From a virus: a stretch of 35,423 bases of DNA. Location of the stretch: IMG/VR virus record IMGVR_UViG_3300043466_000800, positions 1 through 35,423 of that record; one strand, given 5' to 3'. The translations under genes and the position numbers were made by a program. Shown here in pieces: positions 3,656 through 29,192 of this stretch. How positions within the stretch are numbered: position 1 is the first letter of the stretch; each line of letters starts with the position of its first letter. Below the pieces are notes generated by a model. It saw only the letters and a program-made list of their open reading frames with translations. It was not told where the DNA came from and did no database searches.

Positions 3656-3862
3656 ATGCGAAAACGTGCTACCAAACCAAGGCGAATCATTGACATCATT
3701 GTTAAGCATTGGCGTAGCACTATCGGAAGCCTTATGATATTAGTTTCAATATTTTTGCTAATCTTTAAAGTGATATCAACCGAAACCCTTGCGGCAATTG
3801 TGGCAACGCTAATCGCAGCAGGGTACATTCCAAAAGCCAAAGACGATGCAGCAAGTTCGTAG
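3656..3862 (+). CDS. Holin candidate (small membrane protein)
   Basis: 68 residues. It has a strongly basic N-terminus (MRKRATKPRR), a hydrophobic segment at about residues 22-41 and a second weaker one at about 44-58, then a charged tail. Size, topology and the position directly after the lysozyme fit a holin that permeabilises the inner membrane. Holins share little sequence, so the call rests on context. Confidence 0.6.
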   Translation: MRKRATKPRRIIDIIVKHWRSTIGSLMILVSIFLLIFKVISTETLAAIVATLIAAGYIPKAKDDAASS

Positions 3863-4247
3863 AGATACCGTAAAGATTGCACGCCATAACAAGGTGAATG
3901 TCGACACCATGAGCTGGGAGGTTGCAAATGCCGACACAAGCTTTCAGCAAGCTAATCGTAAAAGCTTCGAGTTCGTCATGGCACAGCCAAAGCCAGTGCG
4001 TGAACTTACCGCATTCGATACCATTCAGCCCTGCGATTTGTCACTATACCCACAGCCCACAGCCTATACTTTCAAACCTCAGCCTGTAAGAAACACGCAA
4101 GAATTGGATTCGCCTATGAACTACGATATACTCCTGAATGGTGTTGTGTTTAGCTTTGCCCTGTGGATGAGTGCGAAATACTTGATGGGTTGCGGTGCTG
4201 CCTGGATCAATTTATTTAACGATCTAAGAAGCGAGCTAAGGGCTTAA
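3846..4247 (+). CDS. Unknown protein with one C-terminal membrane segment
   Basis: 133 residues, overlapping the holin candidate by 17 bp. The first 95 residues are polar and Pro/Gln-rich. Around residues 100-120 (ILLNGVVFSFALWMSAKYLMG) there is a single hydrophobic stretch followed by a short charged tail. This is the layout of a tail-anchored membrane protein. Its place in the lysis block suggests a lysis accessory or antiholin-like role, but no family is recognised. Confidence 0.55.
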   Translation: MQQVRRDTVKIARHNKVNVDTMSWEVANADTSFQQANRKSFEFVMAQPKPVRELTAFDTIQPCDLSLYPQPTAYTFKPQPVRNTQELDSPMNYDILLNGVVFSFALWMSAKYLMGCGAAWINLFNDLRSELRA

Positions 4248-4251
4248 ATCT

Positions 4252-4259
4252 TATCTTTG
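4252..4259 (+). promoter_or_regulatory. Promoter -7 box (TATCTTTG) for the PAS-DHp gene
   Basis: An exact match to the Bacteroidota core TAnnTTTG lies only 4 bases before the ATG at 4264. No clear TTTG is seen at -33. With a start point about 7 bases downstream, the mRNA would begin at or next to the start codon, so it would be leaderless or nearly so. Confidence 0.5.
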
Positions 4260-4263
4260 CTTT

Positions 4264-4830
4264 ATGGCATCACTGCACATCCTTGAGGCGAGCATCGACC
4301 TCTTCTATGTGATTACCGACAGGGATGGAAACATTGTCACATCAAACGATTTGTTTCGCGAATACGTAAGTCATATCAAGCCAGGCAATATTTTGGACAT
4401 TGCAGCCAATGACAGCGATCGCGATGAAATGCTTGGAGCAATTAGGAAAGCACAGAGCAAGGCACCGGATCCGATAAGAGTCTATTCCAAGACACGCCAG
4501 AAGATGTCATCTGAGCGGTACAATATGTGGAATGTTTACTCAATCATGAACAGCGTTCACATAATTGGCATTCAGTTGGTCGATGTGACTTCGATAAGCT
4601 CGCATGAACATGAGCGGCAGAAGATCCTTCTGGAAGAGTTTCGCTTCATGTTGAGCCACGAGCTTCGCCAGCCATTGACTTCAATTGGTGGCTTGGTGCA
4701 GATGATCATGGAGCACAAAGAAATCACAGAGGAAGAGCGCAAAGGAATTATGGAGATGATAGCAGACAGCGTGCAGAAGCTTGACGAAGTGATCAGGCTT
4801 CTGGTAAAGAAAGCAACGAGACAGCTATGA
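4264..4830 (+). CDS. PAS domain + histidine-kinase DHp (HisKA) protein lacking an ATPase domain
   Basis: 188 residues. Residues about 8-110 read as a PAS sensor fold (DLFYVITDRDGNIVTSND near the start, IIGIQLVDVTS as the last strand). A linker helix leads to a clear H-box at 127-140, with phosphoacceptor His132 in MLSHELRQPLTSI, and a second helix (about 155-182), together a DHp four-helix-bundle half. The protein ends there: no N, G1, F or G2 boxes, and neither this gene nor the next carries a HATPase domain. It could dimerise with host kinases or act as a phosphotransfer intermediate or decoy. It has its own promoter-like box and lies inside the lysis block. The domain call is firm; the role is inference. 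Confidence 0.8.
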   Translation: MASLHILEASIDLFYVITDRDGNIVTSNDLFREYVSHIKPGNILDIAANDSDRDEMLGAIRKAQSKAPDPIRVYSKTRQKMSSERYNMWNVYSIMNSVHIIGIQLVDVTSISSHEHERQKILLEEFRFMLSHELRQPLTSIGGLVQMIMEHKEITEEERKGIMEMIADSVQKLDEVIRLLVKKATRQL

Positions 4831-5030
4831 ATGAAGCAAACACCTACTTACCAAGCACTGATGATGAATGTGACGAGCGGCTGGTGAAGGTGCTTGCGAT
4901 TTACATCTTAGAAAGGGCCATGCCGCTGAAAGTTGCGAGCCAGATACTGCTTTCAAACTTGCGAAACAAGGACCTTTACATGGTGCGATTTAACGAAGTT
5001 ATGCAATTTGTAAGCAATGGAACAACCTAA
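4827..5030 (+). CDS. Small helical protein of unknown function
   Basis: 67 residues, starting in an ATGA overlap with the PAS-DHp gene, so the two are probably co-translated. The N-terminus is acidic (STDDECDERL) and the rest is predicted helical. It holds no kinase ATPase or receiver motif. Coupling suggests it may work with the PAS-DHp protein, but nothing in the sequence shows this. Confidence 0.55.
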   Translation: MNEANTYLPSTDDECDERLVKVLAIYILERAMPLKVASQILLSNLRNKDLYMVRFNEVMQFVSNGTT

Positions 5031-5676
5031 CTTAAGCAGGCTTTATTTGGTGACAATTACGGTTGTCCTTGCCTTGATGATGATCAGGACTTGCGGAAGA
5101 TTGGCCTCAACAGAGGTTGAACTGGAGCGGCTTGACAATGCCAATGACGAATACACCATGCGAATTGCTCAAGACTCGGCCAAGATTTACAGCCAGTCGC
5201 AGACCATTGTGAGCAGCGAGCGCAAGTATGCAGAGCTTGAGAAGATCAACGCAGCACTTGGAATTAAAGCAAGCCAAGCCGTACAATATAGGACCAAGAC
5301 AGTGATACAAACCGAGTTTGAACTTGGTGACACGGTGTACATCGATAGCTTTCCGCACTTGCGCCTGCCAAGATCATTCGGGCGTGAAGGTAAATGGCTA
5401 TCCATAGGCGGCACGATAAACCGCGTAGGAAGGCTTCAGATTGACTCAATGATAATTCCGGTAGCTTATACCGTTGCCATCGGAGATACGCTGCGTGAGG
5501 GCTCTATTTTGCGAAAGCGTGACAAGGTTGTCCGCATTGCAGTTGACAACCCTTATGTTAGCGTGACTGGCATCAACAATGTGGTGATTCGCCAGGATAA
5601 AAAGTGGTATCAAACCGATGCGGCCAAGATTGGGCTCGGGGCGTTTATTGGTTTCGGCCTGACACGCATAAAATAA
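5017..5676 (+). CDS. Membrane-anchored coiled-coil protein, possible spanin-like lysis protein
   Basis: 219 residues. A single hydrophobic segment at about 8-25 (YLVTITVVLALMMI) acts as a signal anchor. It is followed by a heptad-rich region (about 30-85) and a C-terminal beta-rich domain with repeated D-T-V/L and V-R-I pieces. This is the layout of an inner-membrane protein with a long periplasmic part. Proteins like this recur in Bacteroidota phages near the lysozyme. A spanin role (outer-membrane disruption in Gram-negative hosts) is plausible, but no lipoprotein partner is seen. It overlaps the previous gene by 14 bp. Confidence 0.55.
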   Translation: MEQPNLSRLYLVTITVVLALMMIRTCGRLASTEVELERLDNANDEYTMRIAQDSAKIYSQSQTIVSSERKYAELEKINAALGIKASQAVQYRTKTVIQTEFELGDTVYIDSFPHLRLPRSFGREGKWLSIGGTINRVGRLQIDSMIIPVAYTVAIGDTLREGSILRKRDKVVRIAVDNPYVSVTGINNVVIRQDKKWYQTDAAKIGLGAFIGFGLTRIK

Positions 5677-9327: not shown

Positions 9328-10841
9328 CCCTTCGCCCCTACCAGGAACGATTCATCAACAACATCGCTGCGAGTCTGCGCACTCACCGCAAGGTGGTTGC
9401 GCAGCTCGCAACTGGTGGCGGCAAAACCGTGTGCTTTTCTGCGATTTGCGACCGCTTCACAGCACGCAACAGCAAGGACATCCTAATCCTTGTGCATCGC
9501 GAAGAACTGCTCGCACAGGCCACGAAAGCCATCAAGCTACGCACACAAGCCGTGACCGCCGGCATCAAGTCGATTCCGCATGCTCGCGTTTATGTGGCAA
9601 TGGTTGAGACGGCATACAAGCGGCTCGACAAGTTCACCAACATCGGGCTGGTCATTGTCGATGAATGCCACATCGGCAACTTCACAAAGGTAATCGAGCA
9701 CTTCACGGACAGCTACATCATCGGCTTCACAGCAACGCCATTGGCAGCTCGCAAGACCAATCCCTTGAAGAACTACTTCGATGACATCGTGTGCGGCATC
9801 GACATCCCTGACCTCATCGAACAAGGCTACCTTTGCCAAGAACTTACCTACTCAGCAAAGTCAATTGTGGACCGAGCAAGGCTGAAGATGAAAGCTGGCG
9901 ACTTCGATACGGCACAGATGGCAGCGGCCTACAAGAATCCAAAGTACATCGACACAACAATCAATGCCTACAAGAAGCACTCACTCGGCCAAAAAACAAT
10001 TATCTTTAATTGCAATGTTGAGCACTCGATGGCAGTCAATGCCGCATTCCAAGCAGCAGGCTTCAACTCTCGACATCTCGATGCTGACTCGCCTGATCGG
10101 GCTGAGGTGCTCGAATGGTTCGCCAACACACCCGATGCAATCCTCAACAACATCGGAATCGCAACAACAGGATTCGACCAGCCCGACATCGAGACCGTAA
10201 TCGTAAACAAGGCCACAGCATCAATGCCTCTTTGGCTTCAGATGTGCGGACGTGGAGCAAGGCCGCATCCGGTGAAGCTCGCATTCACCATCATCGATCT
10301 TGGTGGCAACTGCGAAACACATGGACTCTGGTCATCACCTCGCAATTGGGAGCGAATCTTCCACAATCCAAAAAAGCCAGGCGAAGGAGTTGCTCCGGTT
10401 AAGTCATGCCCTGAATGCGAAGCAAGGCATCACACAGCAAAGAAGGTTTGCGATGCAATTCCAACAGGGGAATTATTCCCTTGCGGATATATCTTCCCAC
10501 CAATCGTGGTTAAAGATGAAGGCATTGATGAATTCATCCAAATAGGTCGCAGGATTGATGTAAAAAAACTCATTGAAGCACACGCTCATAATCAGCAGTA
10601 CCGGTCTCTTTATGTGCTGGTTGAGAAAGTATTCACCTCAGCATTGGGAGTGCTCAAAGAAATTAATGAATCACACATGCCCATAATTCAGAAAAAAATT
10701 CATGAACTTGCAAGGCTCTGGTGCCACGAGCACAATAAACGATTCGATGCTTGGCACAGGGACCTCATAGACAATAAACTTAAAACACTTCTAAATGATC
10801 ATCTCACAGTACGACAGCATCTACAACACCAAGGACACTGA
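9324..10841 (+). CDS. Superfamily 2 DEAD/DECH-box helicase
   Basis: 505 residues. Helicase motifs are intact: Q-like start LRPYQERFI, motif I LATGGGKT (28-35), motif II VDECH (112-116), motif III FTATP (135-139), motif VI QMCGRGAR (306-313). After the two RecA-like domains there is a possible zinc site (CPECEARHHTAKKVC) and a helical C-terminal region. It would unwind DNA at the fork or during recombination using ATP. The last 47 bp overlap the primase-helicase start. Confidence 0.9.
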   Translation: MTLRPYQERFINNIAASLRTHRKVVAQLATGGGKTVCFSAICDRFTARNSKDILILVHREELLAQATKAIKLRTQAVTAGIKSIPHARVYVAMVETAYKRLDKFTNIGLVIVDECHIGNFTKVIEHFTDSYIIGFTATPLAARKTNPLKNYFDDIVCGIDIPDLIEQGYLCQELTYSAKSIVDRARLKMKAGDFDTAQMAAAYKNPKYIDTTINAYKKHSLGQKTIIFNCNVEHSMAVNAAFQAAGFNSRHLDADSPDRAEVLEWFANTPDAILNNIGIATTGFDQPDIETVIVNKATASMPLWLQMCGRGARPHPVKLAFTIIDLGGNCETHGLWSSPRNWERIFHNPKKPGEGVAPVKSCPECEARHHTAKKVCDAIPTGELFPCGYIFPPIVVKDEGIDEFIQIGRRIDVKKLIEAHAHNQQYRSLYVLVEKVFTSALGVLKEINESHMPIIQKKIHELARLWCHEHNKRFDAWHRDLIDNKLKTLLNDHLTVRQHLQHQGH

Positions 10842-12918
10842 CATCGAGCTCGCAGCCTTCATCGAAGGCGTGCGCACCGGAAAGTGGCAAGACATCGTCC
10901 TCCAAGTCAGAGCAACAGCCGACAAGGACGAACGCGATAAAAAGAAAAAATCAGCTCCACTGGTAACAGTCAGCGGATCATTCTCGGCCCGAAAGGATGA
11001 AGCCATTCGAGCACACTCTGGCTTCATTGCAATCGATATCGACAACATCGAGAACCCTGAAGAGACCAAGAAGCTAATCGCAGCCGATGCCTACATCTAT
11101 GCCGCATTCACATCCATCAGCGGACACGGCCTTTGCCTGATCATCCGCATCGATGGCACACGCCATCTCGATGCTTTCAACGGCATCGCTTCCTATCTCT
11201 ACAATGAGTACCAGCTCATCGTGGACCAATCCGGCAAAAACGTCTCCAGAGCGCGCTTCATATCCTACGACCCTTGGATAATTATCAACACCAAGGCTGT
11301 GCTATTCAAGAAGTATCTACCCAAAAAGAAGGAGCAGAAGCTTGCAAGAGTTGCGGTTATAAAGACCGACTTCGATGCCATGATTGCAGCGATGGACCGC
11401 AAAGGACTCAACCTCTGCGAAGATTATTCCGACTGGATCCAAATCGCTTATGCACTTGTGTCTGAATTTGGCGAAGGTGGTCGTGACTACTTTCACACAT
11501 TGTCCTCACACTCATCAAAGTACAACTCCGATGACTGCAATGCGCAGTACACAGCATGCTTGAAGAACCACAGCGAATCCAAAGGCAAAAGGTCAACCAT
11601 TGCCACCCTATACTACCACGCCAAGAAGAACGGCATCGAGACCTATTCCGAGCAAAGCAAGGCCATTCTCAGGGCCGCAAGCTCGCAGCGTGCCGCTGGA
11701 CTTTCGCCTGAAGCCATCGTGCGAAGCCTCGAAGTTTCAGGCATCAGCCCAGAGGAAAGCACGAAAGTTGTCAATGAGATAGTAGCAAAGGATATTAAAT
11801 TCAAATCGGAGAACGTAAGTGCTGATATTGCGGCATTTATAAACACTTACGACCTCAAAAAAAATGTAGTTACTCGCAAGATTGAACTCAACGGAAGGGC
11901 CATCGATGACAGTGATCTCAACTCGATATTCTTGGATTCAAAAGCAATCTTTAAGGAATCAACAAAAGACCTTGTCACCGCGATAATTTTCTCAAATCGC
12001 ATTCAGACATACAACCCGTTGCATGAATTCTTTGAAGAAGAACTGCATACCGATGACCTTTGCCCAAACCTAACGCACCTGCTCAACAGCGTTGTGACTG
12101 ACACGCCAAACGCGCACAAGTGGATCACCAAGTGGCTTATCTCTGCCGTGGCATCAGCCTATGGAAATCACTCGCCTCTGGTGCTTATCTTTTGCGGTCA
12201 AAAGCAAGGCACCGGAAAGACGCATTGGTTCCGCTATCTTCTGCCAAAGCGATTGCGCTACCTCTACGCCGAGTCGAAGATGGATGGCGGCAAAGATGAC
12301 GAAATCCTGATGTGCCTCAAGTGGTTCATCATGGATGACGAGTACGGTGGTAAGTCCAAGAAGGAAGAGAAGCGGCTCAAGGAACTAACATCGAAGGAAT
12401 TCATAAACGTGCGCGAGCCATACGGCCGCGTGTCTATGGACCTCAGAAGGCTTGCCGTGTTCTGCGGAACATCGAACGAAACGCAGATACTCAACGATCC
12501 AACTGGTAACCGCAGGCAGCTACCCATCAACATTATTGACATCAACAAAGATGAGTACAACAAGTGCGACAAGGAAGGCTTATGGCGTGAGCTCTATGCC
12601 ATGTACATCAACAATTGGGATTACACCGTGCTGCATGAAGATATACAAGAGCTGAATGAATCGACCAATACCTTCAAGCACTCAACACCTGAAGAGGACT
12701 TGATACACAAGAAGCTTCAGCCTGGCAATTCTTCATCCTATGGCGAGTGGATGTCGCTCACTGACATTCAGCAATATCTGATGATTGAAACCAAGTTCAA
12801 CTACCTCAACATCCAGCGCATTGGCTCGATACTTAGCAGCCTTGGCTTTGAGAAAGATCGCAGGTCAAGAGGCAGCTCGAAGGTGACAATGTACTTTGTA
12901 ACCAAGAATCCCATGTAA
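10795..12918 (+). CDS. Primase-helicase (BT4734/VirE_N-type N-domain + VirE/VapE-type ATPase)
   Basis: 707 residues. The N-domain contains GFIAIDIDN (about 76-84), the metal-binding strand of BT4734-like/VirE_N primase-type domains common in Bacteroidota mobile elements, and SGHGLCLIIRIDG, the second catalytic strand. A PriCT-like helical part follows (about 195-280, EDYSDWIQIAYAL). The C-terminal half is a VirE/VapE ATPase: Walker A GQKQGTGKT (468-476), Walker B WFIMDDE (to 516), sensor FCGTSNE and NRRQLPI. It is probably the phage replicative primase-helicase. The gene ends at the border of the origin-like region. Confidence 0.87.
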   Translation: MIISQYDSIYNTKDTDIELAAFIEGVRTGKWQDIVLQVRATADKDERDKKKKSAPLVTVSGSFSARKDEAIRAHSGFIAIDIDNIENPEETKKLIAADAYIYAAFTSISGHGLCLIIRIDGTRHLDAFNGIASYLYNEYQLIVDQSGKNVSRARFISYDPWIIINTKAVLFKKYLPKKKEQKLARVAVIKTDFDAMIAAMDRKGLNLCEDYSDWIQIAYALVSEFGEGGRDYFHTLSSHSSKYNSDDCNAQYTACLKNHSESKGKRSTIATLYYHAKKNGIETYSEQSKAILRAASSQRAAGLSPEAIVRSLEVSGISPEESTKVVNEIVAKDIKFKSENVSADIAAFINTYDLKKNVVTRKIELNGRAIDDSDLNSIFLDSKAIFKESTKDLVTAIIFSNRIQTYNPLHEFFEEELHTDDLCPNLTHLLNSVVTDTPNAHKWITKWLISAVASAYGNHSPLVLIFCGQKQGTGKTHWFRYLLPKRLRYLYAESKMDGGKDDEILMCLKWFIMDDEYGGKSKKEEKRLKELTSKEFINVREPYGRVSMDLRRLAVFCGTSNETQILNDPTGNRRQLPINIIDINKDEYNKCDKEGLWRELYAMYINNWDYTVLHEDIQELNESTNTFKHSTPEEDLIHKKLQPGNSSSYGEWMSLTDIQQYLMIETKFNYLNIQRIGSILSSLGFEKDRRSRGSSKVTMYFVTKNPM

Positions 12919-13758: not shown

Positions 13759-13766
13759 TACATTTG
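13759..13766 (+). promoter_or_regulatory. Promoter -7 box (TACATTTG) before the gene at 13772
   Basis: TACATTTG fits TAnnTTTG and is followed by GCACAGAT, the same extension seen at the tail-tube promoter (23916-23930). A TTG lies about 21 bp upstream. The ATG is only 5 bases after the box, so the transcript is nearly leaderless. Confidence 0.5.
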
Positions 13767-24004: not shown

Positions 24005-24544
24005 ATGGCTTGTGTAAGCTACTGCGACTCTTCGCTACTTGATCACAACTTAGTAACCTGCAACGAATACAAGCTCGGTGGTGTTTCTGCGATTATCGTT
24101 GGAGCCTGCGGCACAGAATTGGTTGACCCTTCAGATGATGTGGCACTCCAAGCATTATTAACTGCTGGAACTGCTAAACTTATTGAAGACATCCGATTCG
24201 CTTTGCCTGCTGGTTCTCCGGTAATTGTTGATAGCCCAATCGGCTGTGGTACTCCAATTCGTATCAACGAAGACCGTACTGCAACCCTTTATGATGCAAA
24301 CGTGACTGATGAGAATAACTTGTTTTGGAATGATGTTAATAACCGCCGCATTGGATGGGTACTCGCGTACATGTGCGATAGCGGTAAGGTGATCTACATC
24401 GATCCACCACAAGGATTGAGCACATCAGCACAGTTCATCTTGCCTGAGCAGAACAACGAATTGCAGCGTTACGAAGTGACTTTCTCATGGCGTGACAAGA
24501 ATATTCCTGAACAATACGATGCCCCTGCTGGGATCTTTGGATAA
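24005..24544 (+). CDS. Major tail (tube) protein candidate
   Basis: 179 residues with its own promoter and a long structured leader, features shared only with the capsid gene, so it is probably made in large amounts. Beta-rich with an alpha helix (DVALQALLTAGTAKLIEDI), consistent with a tail-tube fold. The Cys-rich start (CVSYCDSSLLDHNLVTC) is unusual. No other tail-tube candidate is seen nearby. It lies downstream of the tail-tip genes rather than before the tape measure, which weakens the call somewhat. Confidence 0.5.
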   Translation: MACVSYCDSSLLDHNLVTCNEYKLGGVSAIIVGACGTELVDPSDDVALQALLTAGTAKLIEDIRFALPAGSPVIVDSPIGCGTPIRINEDRTATLYDANVTDENNLFWNDVNNRRIGWVLAYMCDSGKVIYIDPPQGLSTSAQFILPEQNNELQRYEVTFSWRDKNIPEQYDAPAGIFG

Positions 24545-25464
24545 TGGATATTCAACCAACAAATCAGAGTGACAAGCACGCCTCATCAGGGGTTGTGCTT
24601 GTTGCTTTTGGTAAGCCTCAGTATTACTGGGCTGCTTACAATCTTGCTTACTCGATTAAGAGATTCAATAAGCAGTTGCAGATTGCATTGATTTGCGACA
24701 GCCAAGAAAGAGCTACCTATTATTGTCATGACCTGACAAATGTCATCGATGTATATGTTGAGCTTCCAGAGCAGCACATCTACACGAACAAGAAACTTGA
24801 TCCAGGCAAGGCAAAAGTTTTGCTTTACGATTACTTGCCATACCAAAACAACTTATATCTCGATGTCGATGCTGTATGCCTAAAAGACTTGCAGCCATTG
24901 ATTGACCAGCTAATCGAGAATGATGCTGAGTATGCCACTCATGTAGTTGGCGAGCACACCATTGACAAAGGCAGAGACTTCAAGCAGATGCAATGGGCTT
25001 GGGCTGATCAACTATGGCAGCATTTTGGACTGGTGAAATCCGACAAGATATATGCAATAAACAGCTCGATTCAATTCATTCAGAAGTGCGAAAAGGCAGA
25101 AGCTATTTATCGAATGGCTGCTGATATGTACATCAACAATCCGATGCCATTGAACAAGCTGCGCATGAAGTGGGGTGGAGGGCAACCTGATGAGCTTTAC
25201 TTCAACGTGTCATTTGGAAAGAATAAATTCAAGCCTTACGAAGTTAATGCCATCTGCTTTCAGATGAATCGTGAATTTACCTTTTCGCAAATCGAAGAGC
25301 AGTTCTACCTCATGAGCTACTATGGAGGCAAAGGATTCACACCAACATTCTACACGGATTGGCTGGATCGAAAACTAAAAGCATGGATGCAAGAGGAAGG
25401 CATTCAGCACAAATACTTCATTCACAGAATAACCGACCATAAGCATGCAGACCCTAAGCGATAA
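24544..25464 (+). CDS. Glycosyltransferase (GT-A fold, family 8-like)
   Basis: 306 residues. The first strand motif VLVAFGKPQYYWAAYNLAYSI is the nucleotide-sugar-binding start of GT-A enzymes, and the DxD metal site is Asp107-Val-Asp109 in LYLDVDAV. The conserved GGGQPDELYFN segment (about 215) matches the acceptor-side region of such enzymes. It starts one base before the tail-tube stop ends (overlap TAATG), so expression is coupled to a virion gene. It may add sugar to virion proteins or to the host surface; the donor sugar is unknown. Confidence 0.8.
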   Translation: MDIQPTNQSDKHASSGVVLVAFGKPQYYWAAYNLAYSIKRFNKQLQIALICDSQERATYYCHDLTNVIDVYVELPEQHIYTNKKLDPGKAKVLLYDYLPYQNNLYLDVDAVCLKDLQPLIDQLIENDAEYATHVVGEHTIDKGRDFKQMQWAWADQLWQHFGLVKSDKIYAINSSIQFIQKCEKAEAIYRMAADMYINNPMPLNKLRMKWGGGQPDELYFNVSFGKNKFKPYEVNAICFQMNREFTFSQIEEQFYLMSYYGGKGFTPTFYTDWLDRKLKAWMQEEGIQHKYFIHRITDHKHADPKR

Positions 25465-26020
25465 GCCAAAAAGAGGCAGACCTAAAAAAGAAAAAGAAAT
25501 TGTGACAACAGCAACATTCAATGAAGTAGCACGTCACGGATGGAATAGTGAGCCTGATGTCTGTCAATTTATTGGCTCACTTATCAAGATGACACAAGCC
25601 AAGACAGTGCTTGAGGTCGGAGTATTCGAAGGCGAGACAGCAATGAAGATGATTGAGGCACTGCCAATTGGAGGCTACTATGCAGGCATTGACATCAACG
25701 ATTATATTAAGCATGACCTTGCAAGAAACGGTGTTGCTGTTGACTTTATCCTTGGCGAATCTATTCAGAAGATTAAGCAGATGCCAGCAAAGCATTTTGA
25801 TTTTATCTTCATTGATGGAGATCACTCCTGGGAGAATATCCTTCCAGAGTTCAAAGAGGTTGAGCGAGTGATTGCCCAAGGTGGAATCATTGCATATCAT
25901 GATACAATCCACATTCCTGATGTTAACAAGCTAATGGAATATGTTTCGCATTACAAGTACCATGTAATCACATTAAACACATCCGAAGGCCGTGGGCTTT
26001 CAATACTTCAAGCACTATGA
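25445..26020 (+). CDS. SAM-dependent methyltransferase (class I, Methyltransf_24-like)
   Basis: 191 residues. Motif I VLEVGVFEGETAMKM (about 55-69) binds SAM, an acidic loop follows (AGIDIND), and motif FDFIFIDGDHSWENI (about 117-131) matches the Methyltransf_24 family, which often acts on sugars or small molecules. An N-terminal KPKRGRPKK patch looks like an AT-hook. It overlaps the glycosyltransferase by 20 bp, so the two probably act in sequence, for example by methylating a transferred sugar. Confidence 0.82.
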   Translation: MQTLSDKPKRGRPKKEKEIVTTATFNEVARHGWNSEPDVCQFIGSLIKMTQAKTVLEVGVFEGETAMKMIEALPIGGYYAGIDINDYIKHDLARNGVAVDFILGESIQKIKQMPAKHFDFIFIDGDHSWENILPEFKEVERVIAQGGIIAYHDTIHIPDVNKLMEYVSHYKYHVITLNTSEGRGLSILQAL

Positions 26021-28913: not shown

Positions 28914-28921
28914 TACCTTTG
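28914..28921 (+). promoter_or_regulatory. Promoter -7 box (TACCTTTG)
   Basis: Matches TAnnTTTG in the 23-bp gap before ATG 28926; a TTG at 28895-28897 lies 16 bp upstream. It would drive the scaffold region. The box is only 4 bases from the ATG. Confidence 0.5.
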
Positions 28922-28925
28922 TTTA

Positions 28926-29192
28926 ATGAGACACCTTATTCTAAGTAGTGGCCGTATCATTCAAGCCTCTGATATGGTGGCCGAGCACCTTCTTAAAAAG
29001 AAAGGCGCACGAGAGTTGACATTGCAACCAATTAATACCCCTACAATATATGCCGATCAAACCGGAGGAAGCACTGGAACTGGTGAACTTCCTAAACCTA
29101 AACGAAGTAGAAAACCTGGAGGAAGCGAAGGAAAAGTTTCAGGAGAACTGGGTAAACAGCAAGGAGCTAAACGACAAGCTCGGAAAGATTAA
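28926..29192 (+). CDS. Small head-region protein overlapping the scaffold gene
   Basis: 88 residues. The first 45 resemble small head proteins (LSSGRIIQASDMVAEHLLKKKGARELTL, a barrel-like domain with an 'eroded loop'); the last 45 are Gly/Lys-rich (KPKRSRKPGGSEGKV) and overlap the scaffold gene in another frame for 143 bp. It has its own promoter-like box. Function unknown, probably structural. Confidence 0.6.
   Translation: MRHLILSSGRIIQASDMVAEHLLKKKGARELTLQPINTPTIYADQTGGSTGTGELPKPKRSRKPGGSEGKVSGELGKQQGAKRQARKD

Follow-up and report, generated by a model that had tools for sequence, protein, structure and literature searches.

The window analysed here, the whole 35,423-nucleotide stretch of an IMG/VR virus record, carries on its plus strand (on which the promoter box, the 67-aa ORF and the holin candidate described below also lie) a gene at positions 4264–4830 that begins with ATG and encodes a protein of 188 aa without a catalytic domain, hereafter PAS-DHp. 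We characterized this protein by Pfam, phmmer and profile searches and by AlphaFold and Foldseek. HisKA (PF00512) was the sole Pfam domain detected, matching residues 129–178 (E 1e-8, 35.5 bits against a curated cut-off of 26.9); HATPase_c gave no Pfam match on the protein, and neither did any PAS model at E<1. Residues 8–182 were aligned by phmmer to ThkA, a PAS+DHp kinase (3a0r, E 8e-8), which was also matched by a profile of the family over residues 7–187 (E 2e-17). AlphaFold reached a pLDDT of 50.7 when given 11 closely related sequences, and 39 more diverse sequences gave a model with a pLDDT of 82.7 and a pTM of 0.53, in which a PAS topology is followed by two helices. On the basis of this model, the fold search and the ThkA alignment, the predicted PAS domain covers residues of about 1–106 (4264–4581), the signalling helix and DHp helix 1 with the H-box cover residues 108–150 (4585–4713), and DHp helix 2 covers residues 156–187 (4729–4824), after which one further residue completes the protein. 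His132, whose codon (4657–4659) lies within FRFMLSHELRQPLTSIGGLV, and Glu133 (together 4657–4662) are the predicted phosphoacceptor and acid of the kinase reaction, respectively, and Gln136 (4669–4671) occupies position H+4, where HisKA phosphatases have Thr or Asn. The top PDB matches in Foldseek were LOV/PAS histidine kinases (a LOV-FixL chimera, ThkA and Brucella LOV-HK) and PAS/LOV domains, with low whole-chain TM scores of 0.3–0.4, which may be read as a difference between structures in the angle of PAS domain and hairpin.

The profile score above the cut-off, together with the predicted two-helix hairpin bearing His132 in helix 1, places the protein in the HisKA DHp family, and the model predicts a PAS fold for the product of 4264–4830 despite the missing Pfam PAS match. 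An earlier note on this DNA had proposed a PAS fold and a complete H-box with His132 in a gene that stops after the second DHp helix and has no kinase ATPase domain. The HisKA match, the AlphaFold model and the ThkA alignment bear out the first part, and the Pfam result and the two predicted helices bear out the second; the DHp hairpin, on which the proposal depended, is likewise predicted by AlphaFold.

We looked for a catalytic partner elsewhere in the phage. Neither HATPase_c nor receiver-domain models had a match in 22 contigs (the window plus 21 siblings, many of them 30–40 kb long), whereas every control genome was positive. HATPase_c was also missing from ten more records, among them the sister clade described below, which makes 32 phage records without it, some of them fragments. 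A catalytic gene hidden at another place in the phage was rejected and, as neither HATPase_c (32 records) nor a receiver domain (22 records) was found, any donor or acceptor of phosphate would be the host's. The HATPase_c domain of a histidine kinase is missing from the protein, the phage and its siblings; PAS-DHp has a phosphoacceptor domain on a chain without a catalytic domain, as does a component of a split histidine kinase.

At least 163–325 related stretches were retrieved from IMG/VR, the number varying with the query. They include a main group, whose proteins begin with MASLHIL and share about 75–100% identity with that of the window, and a sister group beginning with MSSLFIL, at 58–60%. 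All 112 distinct gene sequences closed at 188 aa. His132 and Glu133 were invariant across 92 distinct proteins, a conservation that is partly circular for the loci found with the one pattern that demanded the SHE motif, and position H+4 was Gln in 91 of the 92 and His in one. To avoid selecting on the SHE motif, an independent set was anchored on the sister clade's holin gene. In this set, PAS-DHp was present in 60 of 80 loci and the remaining 20 were too short to judge, so that 60/60 judgeable loci carry the gene; all 54 complete copies encode 188 aa, and each of the 40 distinct proteins has the motif SHELRQPL or SHEIRQPL, with His132 and Glu133 again invariant. The histidine whose loss in homologues would have spoken against the earlier note is thus retained in both sets. 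The dN/dS of the gene was about 0.10 across the 112 sequences (medians from pairs with usable dS only, 24 for the whole gene), and nonsynonymous change was lowest in the H-box, at 0.03 of the gene dS as against 0.10 in the PAS domain and 0.29 in the loop after the H-box. Presence in every judgeable holin-anchored locus, constant length and constant motif mark PAS-DHp as a core gene of the phage lineage, with constraint centred on the phosphoacceptor motif. Searches of annotated phages by tblastn gave no PAS-DHp match at E<0.01 and, at E<10, weak partial matches only, mostly to the DHp part; PADLOC returned no match. Scanning bacterial genome contigs with full-length patterns retrieved nothing, and with the DHp half four Bacteroidota loci.

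In the loci compared, the gene order around PAS-DHp is constant as far as the contigs reach: tail genes are followed by lysozyme, the holin-like gene and a rapidly changing ORF, then PAS-DHp, and beyond it come a 67-aa ORF, a 219-aa protein and the replication genes. The same gene was accordingly found in the same place in related phages. The holin candidate (3656–3862) is a 68-aa membrane protein with a hydrophobic helix, a weak match to a holin PHROG (E 0.06) and 60–68% identity in distant loci. Directly upstream of PAS-DHp lies a 133-aa ORF (3846–4247) with a hydrophobic C-terminal stretch, which is 25–30% identical to its counterpart in the sister clade, its neighbours being 52–68% identical. 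Downstream, a soluble 67-aa ORF (4827–5030), a possible partner from the comparison of loci, has no family match, adjoins PAS-DHp in every locus compared and in most loci overlaps its stop codon with its start (ATGA); it changes faster, with 42–44% identity in the sister clade versus 58–60% for PAS-DHp. The placement of PAS-DHp between the holin candidate and a spanin-like gene (5017–5676), as first described, is correct in that both genes are nearby, but the 133-aa ORF separates it from the former and the 67-aa ORF from the latter, and no family match backs the spanin label.

A box of the Bacteroidota sigma-A −7 type (TAnnTTTG), here TATCTTTG at 4252–4259, precedes the gene. In 91/91 distinct main-clade genes such a box, mostly of this same sequence, occupies precisely −12 to −5 relative to the ATG, amid surrounding bases that are mostly variable. 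The claim that the gene has its own promoter box therefore applies to the main clade and not to the sister clade, in which the box is found at the ATG in 0/21 genes, a conserved one occurs 318 bp upstream instead and, in the loci inspected, PAS-DHp overlaps the upstream ORF. In Flavobacterium, the sigma-A box TAnnTTTG spans −12 to −5 relative to the start of transcription, and leaderless mRNAs make up 5.5% of the total (PMC9723704). The same spacing relative to the ATG predicts transcription from the A of the start codon and hence a leaderless PAS-DHp transcript in the main clade, where PAS-DHp may be the first gene of a separate transcript and not part of a lysis operon. TAnnTTTG boxes also precede the ATG of the genes at 28926 (box 28914–28921) and 13772 (box 13759–13766), by 4 and 5 bp, respectively, a near-leaderless geometry equal or nearly equal to that of PAS-DHp.

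The phage group is widespread and related to Bacteroidota phages. The primase/VirE-like protein encoded at 10795–12918 shares 32–35% identity with its counterparts in Cellulophaga phi46:1, Nonlabens P12024 and Flavobacterium mumin phages, in which tblastn found no PAS-DHp gene. These primase relatives indicate a Bacteroidota host, and from them and the promoter type we infer that the host is probably a member of this phylum.

Bacteroidota genomes contain many sensor proteins (with PAS, GAF, CBS or receiver domains) that end right after an H-box DHp and have no catalytic domain, with several per genome (loci L082, L083, L144-L149, L151, L152, L154, L155, L157-L160, L164, L167-L174, L177, L178, L181-L183, L185-L187, L190-L192 and L196). 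One example is a 339-aa CBS-PAS-DHp protein of Dawidia soli (L082:3197-4216), and several PAS-DHp proteins of 156–231 aa occur in two MAGs labelled Sphingobacteriales and Flavipsychrobacter. These proteins (PAS-DHp, GAF-DHp and CBS-PAS-DHp, including those of D. soli and of the MAG loci L144, L147, L149 and L157) share domain order and end point with the phage protein: a PAS domain followed by DHp, an H-box His, LDxxI in helix 2 and a stop 1–20 residues past the DHp. They differ from it in their 18–27% identity, their non-phage context and the residue at H+1, which is mostly non-acidic (K, V, T or other) and E in 10/37, whereas the phage family always has E. A profile built from the Bacteroidota proteins and three phage members had matches in 92/119 genomes of the same class, and 20 of its best 30 loci end within 45 aa of the DHp, a share inflated by a query made up mostly of DHp-terminal proteins. 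The best scores of the phage protein were 67 bits against a profile of 37 DHp-terminal proteins and 64 bits against one of 20 full kinases. A DNA pattern for the SHxVRAP motif of the host DHp-terminal proteins retrieved no viral contig, nor did the Dawidia query, and we found no paper on Bacteroidota DHp-terminal proteins in the open-access literature.

Given these proteins, the remark in the earlier note that no phage system of this form was known to it is not supported if taken broadly, for systems of any origin: HisKA proteins without HATPase are a recognised though little-studied class, counted at 1,556 of 42,417, and split kinases act in trans, CheA4 on CheA3 and the domains of EnvZ on separate chains (PMC3591291). 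PAS-DHp resembles CheA3/CheA4 of Rhodobacter sphaeroides, and the HisKA proteins without HATPase, in having its phosphoacceptor His on a chain without a catalytic domain (PMC3591291). However, CheA3 has no dimerisation and kinase domains, carries a P1 domain instead of DHp and has a partner encoded by the same organism, whereas the phage encodes none for PAS-DHp. RetS is a large hybrid membrane kinase, unlike the soluble, 188-aa phage protein. The RetS-GacS multikinase network is nonetheless comparable as a case of a DHp protein acting on another kinase, as RetS siphons phosphate from the GacS DHp and inhibits GacS via heterodimer formation (PMC12189002). PIT4 of Pseudomonas phage LSL4 is likewise a phage protein aimed at host two-component kinases, several of whose kinase domains it binds (PMC10714779), but it has 131 aa, no conserved domains and neither DHp nor PAS. 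Histidine kinases from phages and viruses (PHROG 10912, A0A6J5L941 and Agrobacterium phage Atu_ph07) have PAS/DHp parts resembling those of the window protein; the A0A6J5L941 and Atu_ph07 entries are annotated as histidine kinases of 528–536 aa, whereas the window protein stops after the DHp. The architecture is thus already known in cells, and the new part is its fixation in phages; no description of a phage-encoded PAS-DHp protein without a catalytic domain was found in the open-access literature.

Among HisKA proteins, the acid at H+1 serves the kinase reaction only and Thr/Asn at H+4 the phosphatase reaction only, a change of Asn to Gln having abolished the phosphatase activity of CrdS (PMC3510030). 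The motif H-E-L-R-Q of the phage protein, with E at H+1 and Q at H+4, is therefore what one would predict for a protein able to accept phosphate but ill suited to act as a phosphatase. As the phage has no catalytic domain, the phosphate would have to come in trans from a kinase of the host, in the manner of CheA4 on CheA3 or the separated EnvZ domains. We see about an even chance that PAS-DHp is a soluble phosphoacceptor or decoy of this kind, with catalysis left to a host kinase. Its DHp hairpin would pair either with a second copy or with a subunit of a host kinase, and His132 would be phosphorylated in trans by a host kinase's ATP-binding domain. The phosphoryl group would then be drained from the host pathway, much as RetS siphons it from GacS (PMC12189002), or handed to a host response regulator, under the control of the PAS domain. 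The invariance of His132 and Glu133 in the 92 proteins, and in the 40/40 not selected on the motif, argues for this reading, as does the low nonsynonymous change of the H-box; that the protein dimerises and is phosphorylated in trans is what we infer, along with its host partner, its signal and a possible influence on when lysis occurs. Control of lysis timing by PAS-DHp is a candidate role suggested by gene position. A larger proposal, in which a half-kinase fixed as a core gene supplies a leaderless phosphoacceptor that enters host two-component signalling, senses a small ligand or the cell state and, by way of the host pathway, sets the course of infection or lysis, is tentative and on balance doubtful.

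Conservation of the H-box could also reflect binding without phosphotransfer, and the strongest competitor of a phosphoacceptor acting in trans is a decoy that does no more than bind. Its hairpin would form dead heterodimers with a host kinase or sequester a response regulator, resulting in a dominant negative block, for which the inhibition of GacS by RetS (PMC12189002), the binding of host kinase domains by PIT4 (PMC10714779) and the complete DHp surface of PAS-DHp all speak; mere binding needs no Glu133, however, which is invariant all the same, and we regard this explanation as unlikely. The many Bacteroidota DHp-terminal proteins with no acid at H+1 indicate that the architecture may have a phosphorylation-independent role. 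PAS domain and hairpin could also work as a dimer switched by a ligand, whose targets would be the proteins of adjacent phage genes (the 67-aa ORF or membrane proteins) and which would involve no two-component chemistry. The conserved gene order, the ATGA overlap and the adjoining lysis genes are consistent with such a sensor, which seems quite unlikely to us as it leaves the invariant His-Glu pair and the most constrained H-box unexplained and as its 67-aa neighbour evolves much faster.

Free HisKA-type proteins can be phosphatases, as CheA3 is for CheY6, but that PAS-DHp should serve a host response regulator in this way is very improbable, since HisKA phosphatases need Thr or Asn at H+4 and loss of CrdS activity followed the change to Gln (PMC3510030); with Gln or, once, His at this position, a phosphatase function was rejected. 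The resemblance of the protein to the front part of a kinase might suggest a decaying or truncated kinase, a frameshift or bacterial contamination. Such an origin, whose probability is close to nil, is refuted by the constant length of 188 aa, kept by complete copies down to about 55–60% identity, by purifying selection and by the lack of HATPase_c anywhere in the phage.

Complete phage kinases are annotated, and PIT4 is a known case of a phage protein binding histidine kinases of the host; the present data suggest that a phage carrying a PAS-DHp half-kinase plugs into host signalling during infection. If PAS-DHp were phosphorylated by host kinases, phages would steer two-component signalling via a host-powered component, and the phage protein would then give a way into the study of the numerous DHp-terminal proteins of Bacteroidota that are still uncharacterised.

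Elsewhere in the window, a glycosyltransferase-like gene (weak match) and an O-methyltransferase gene lie amid structural genes at 24544–26020, and the O-methyltransferase is present in two copies in one related locus (L292:537-1639).
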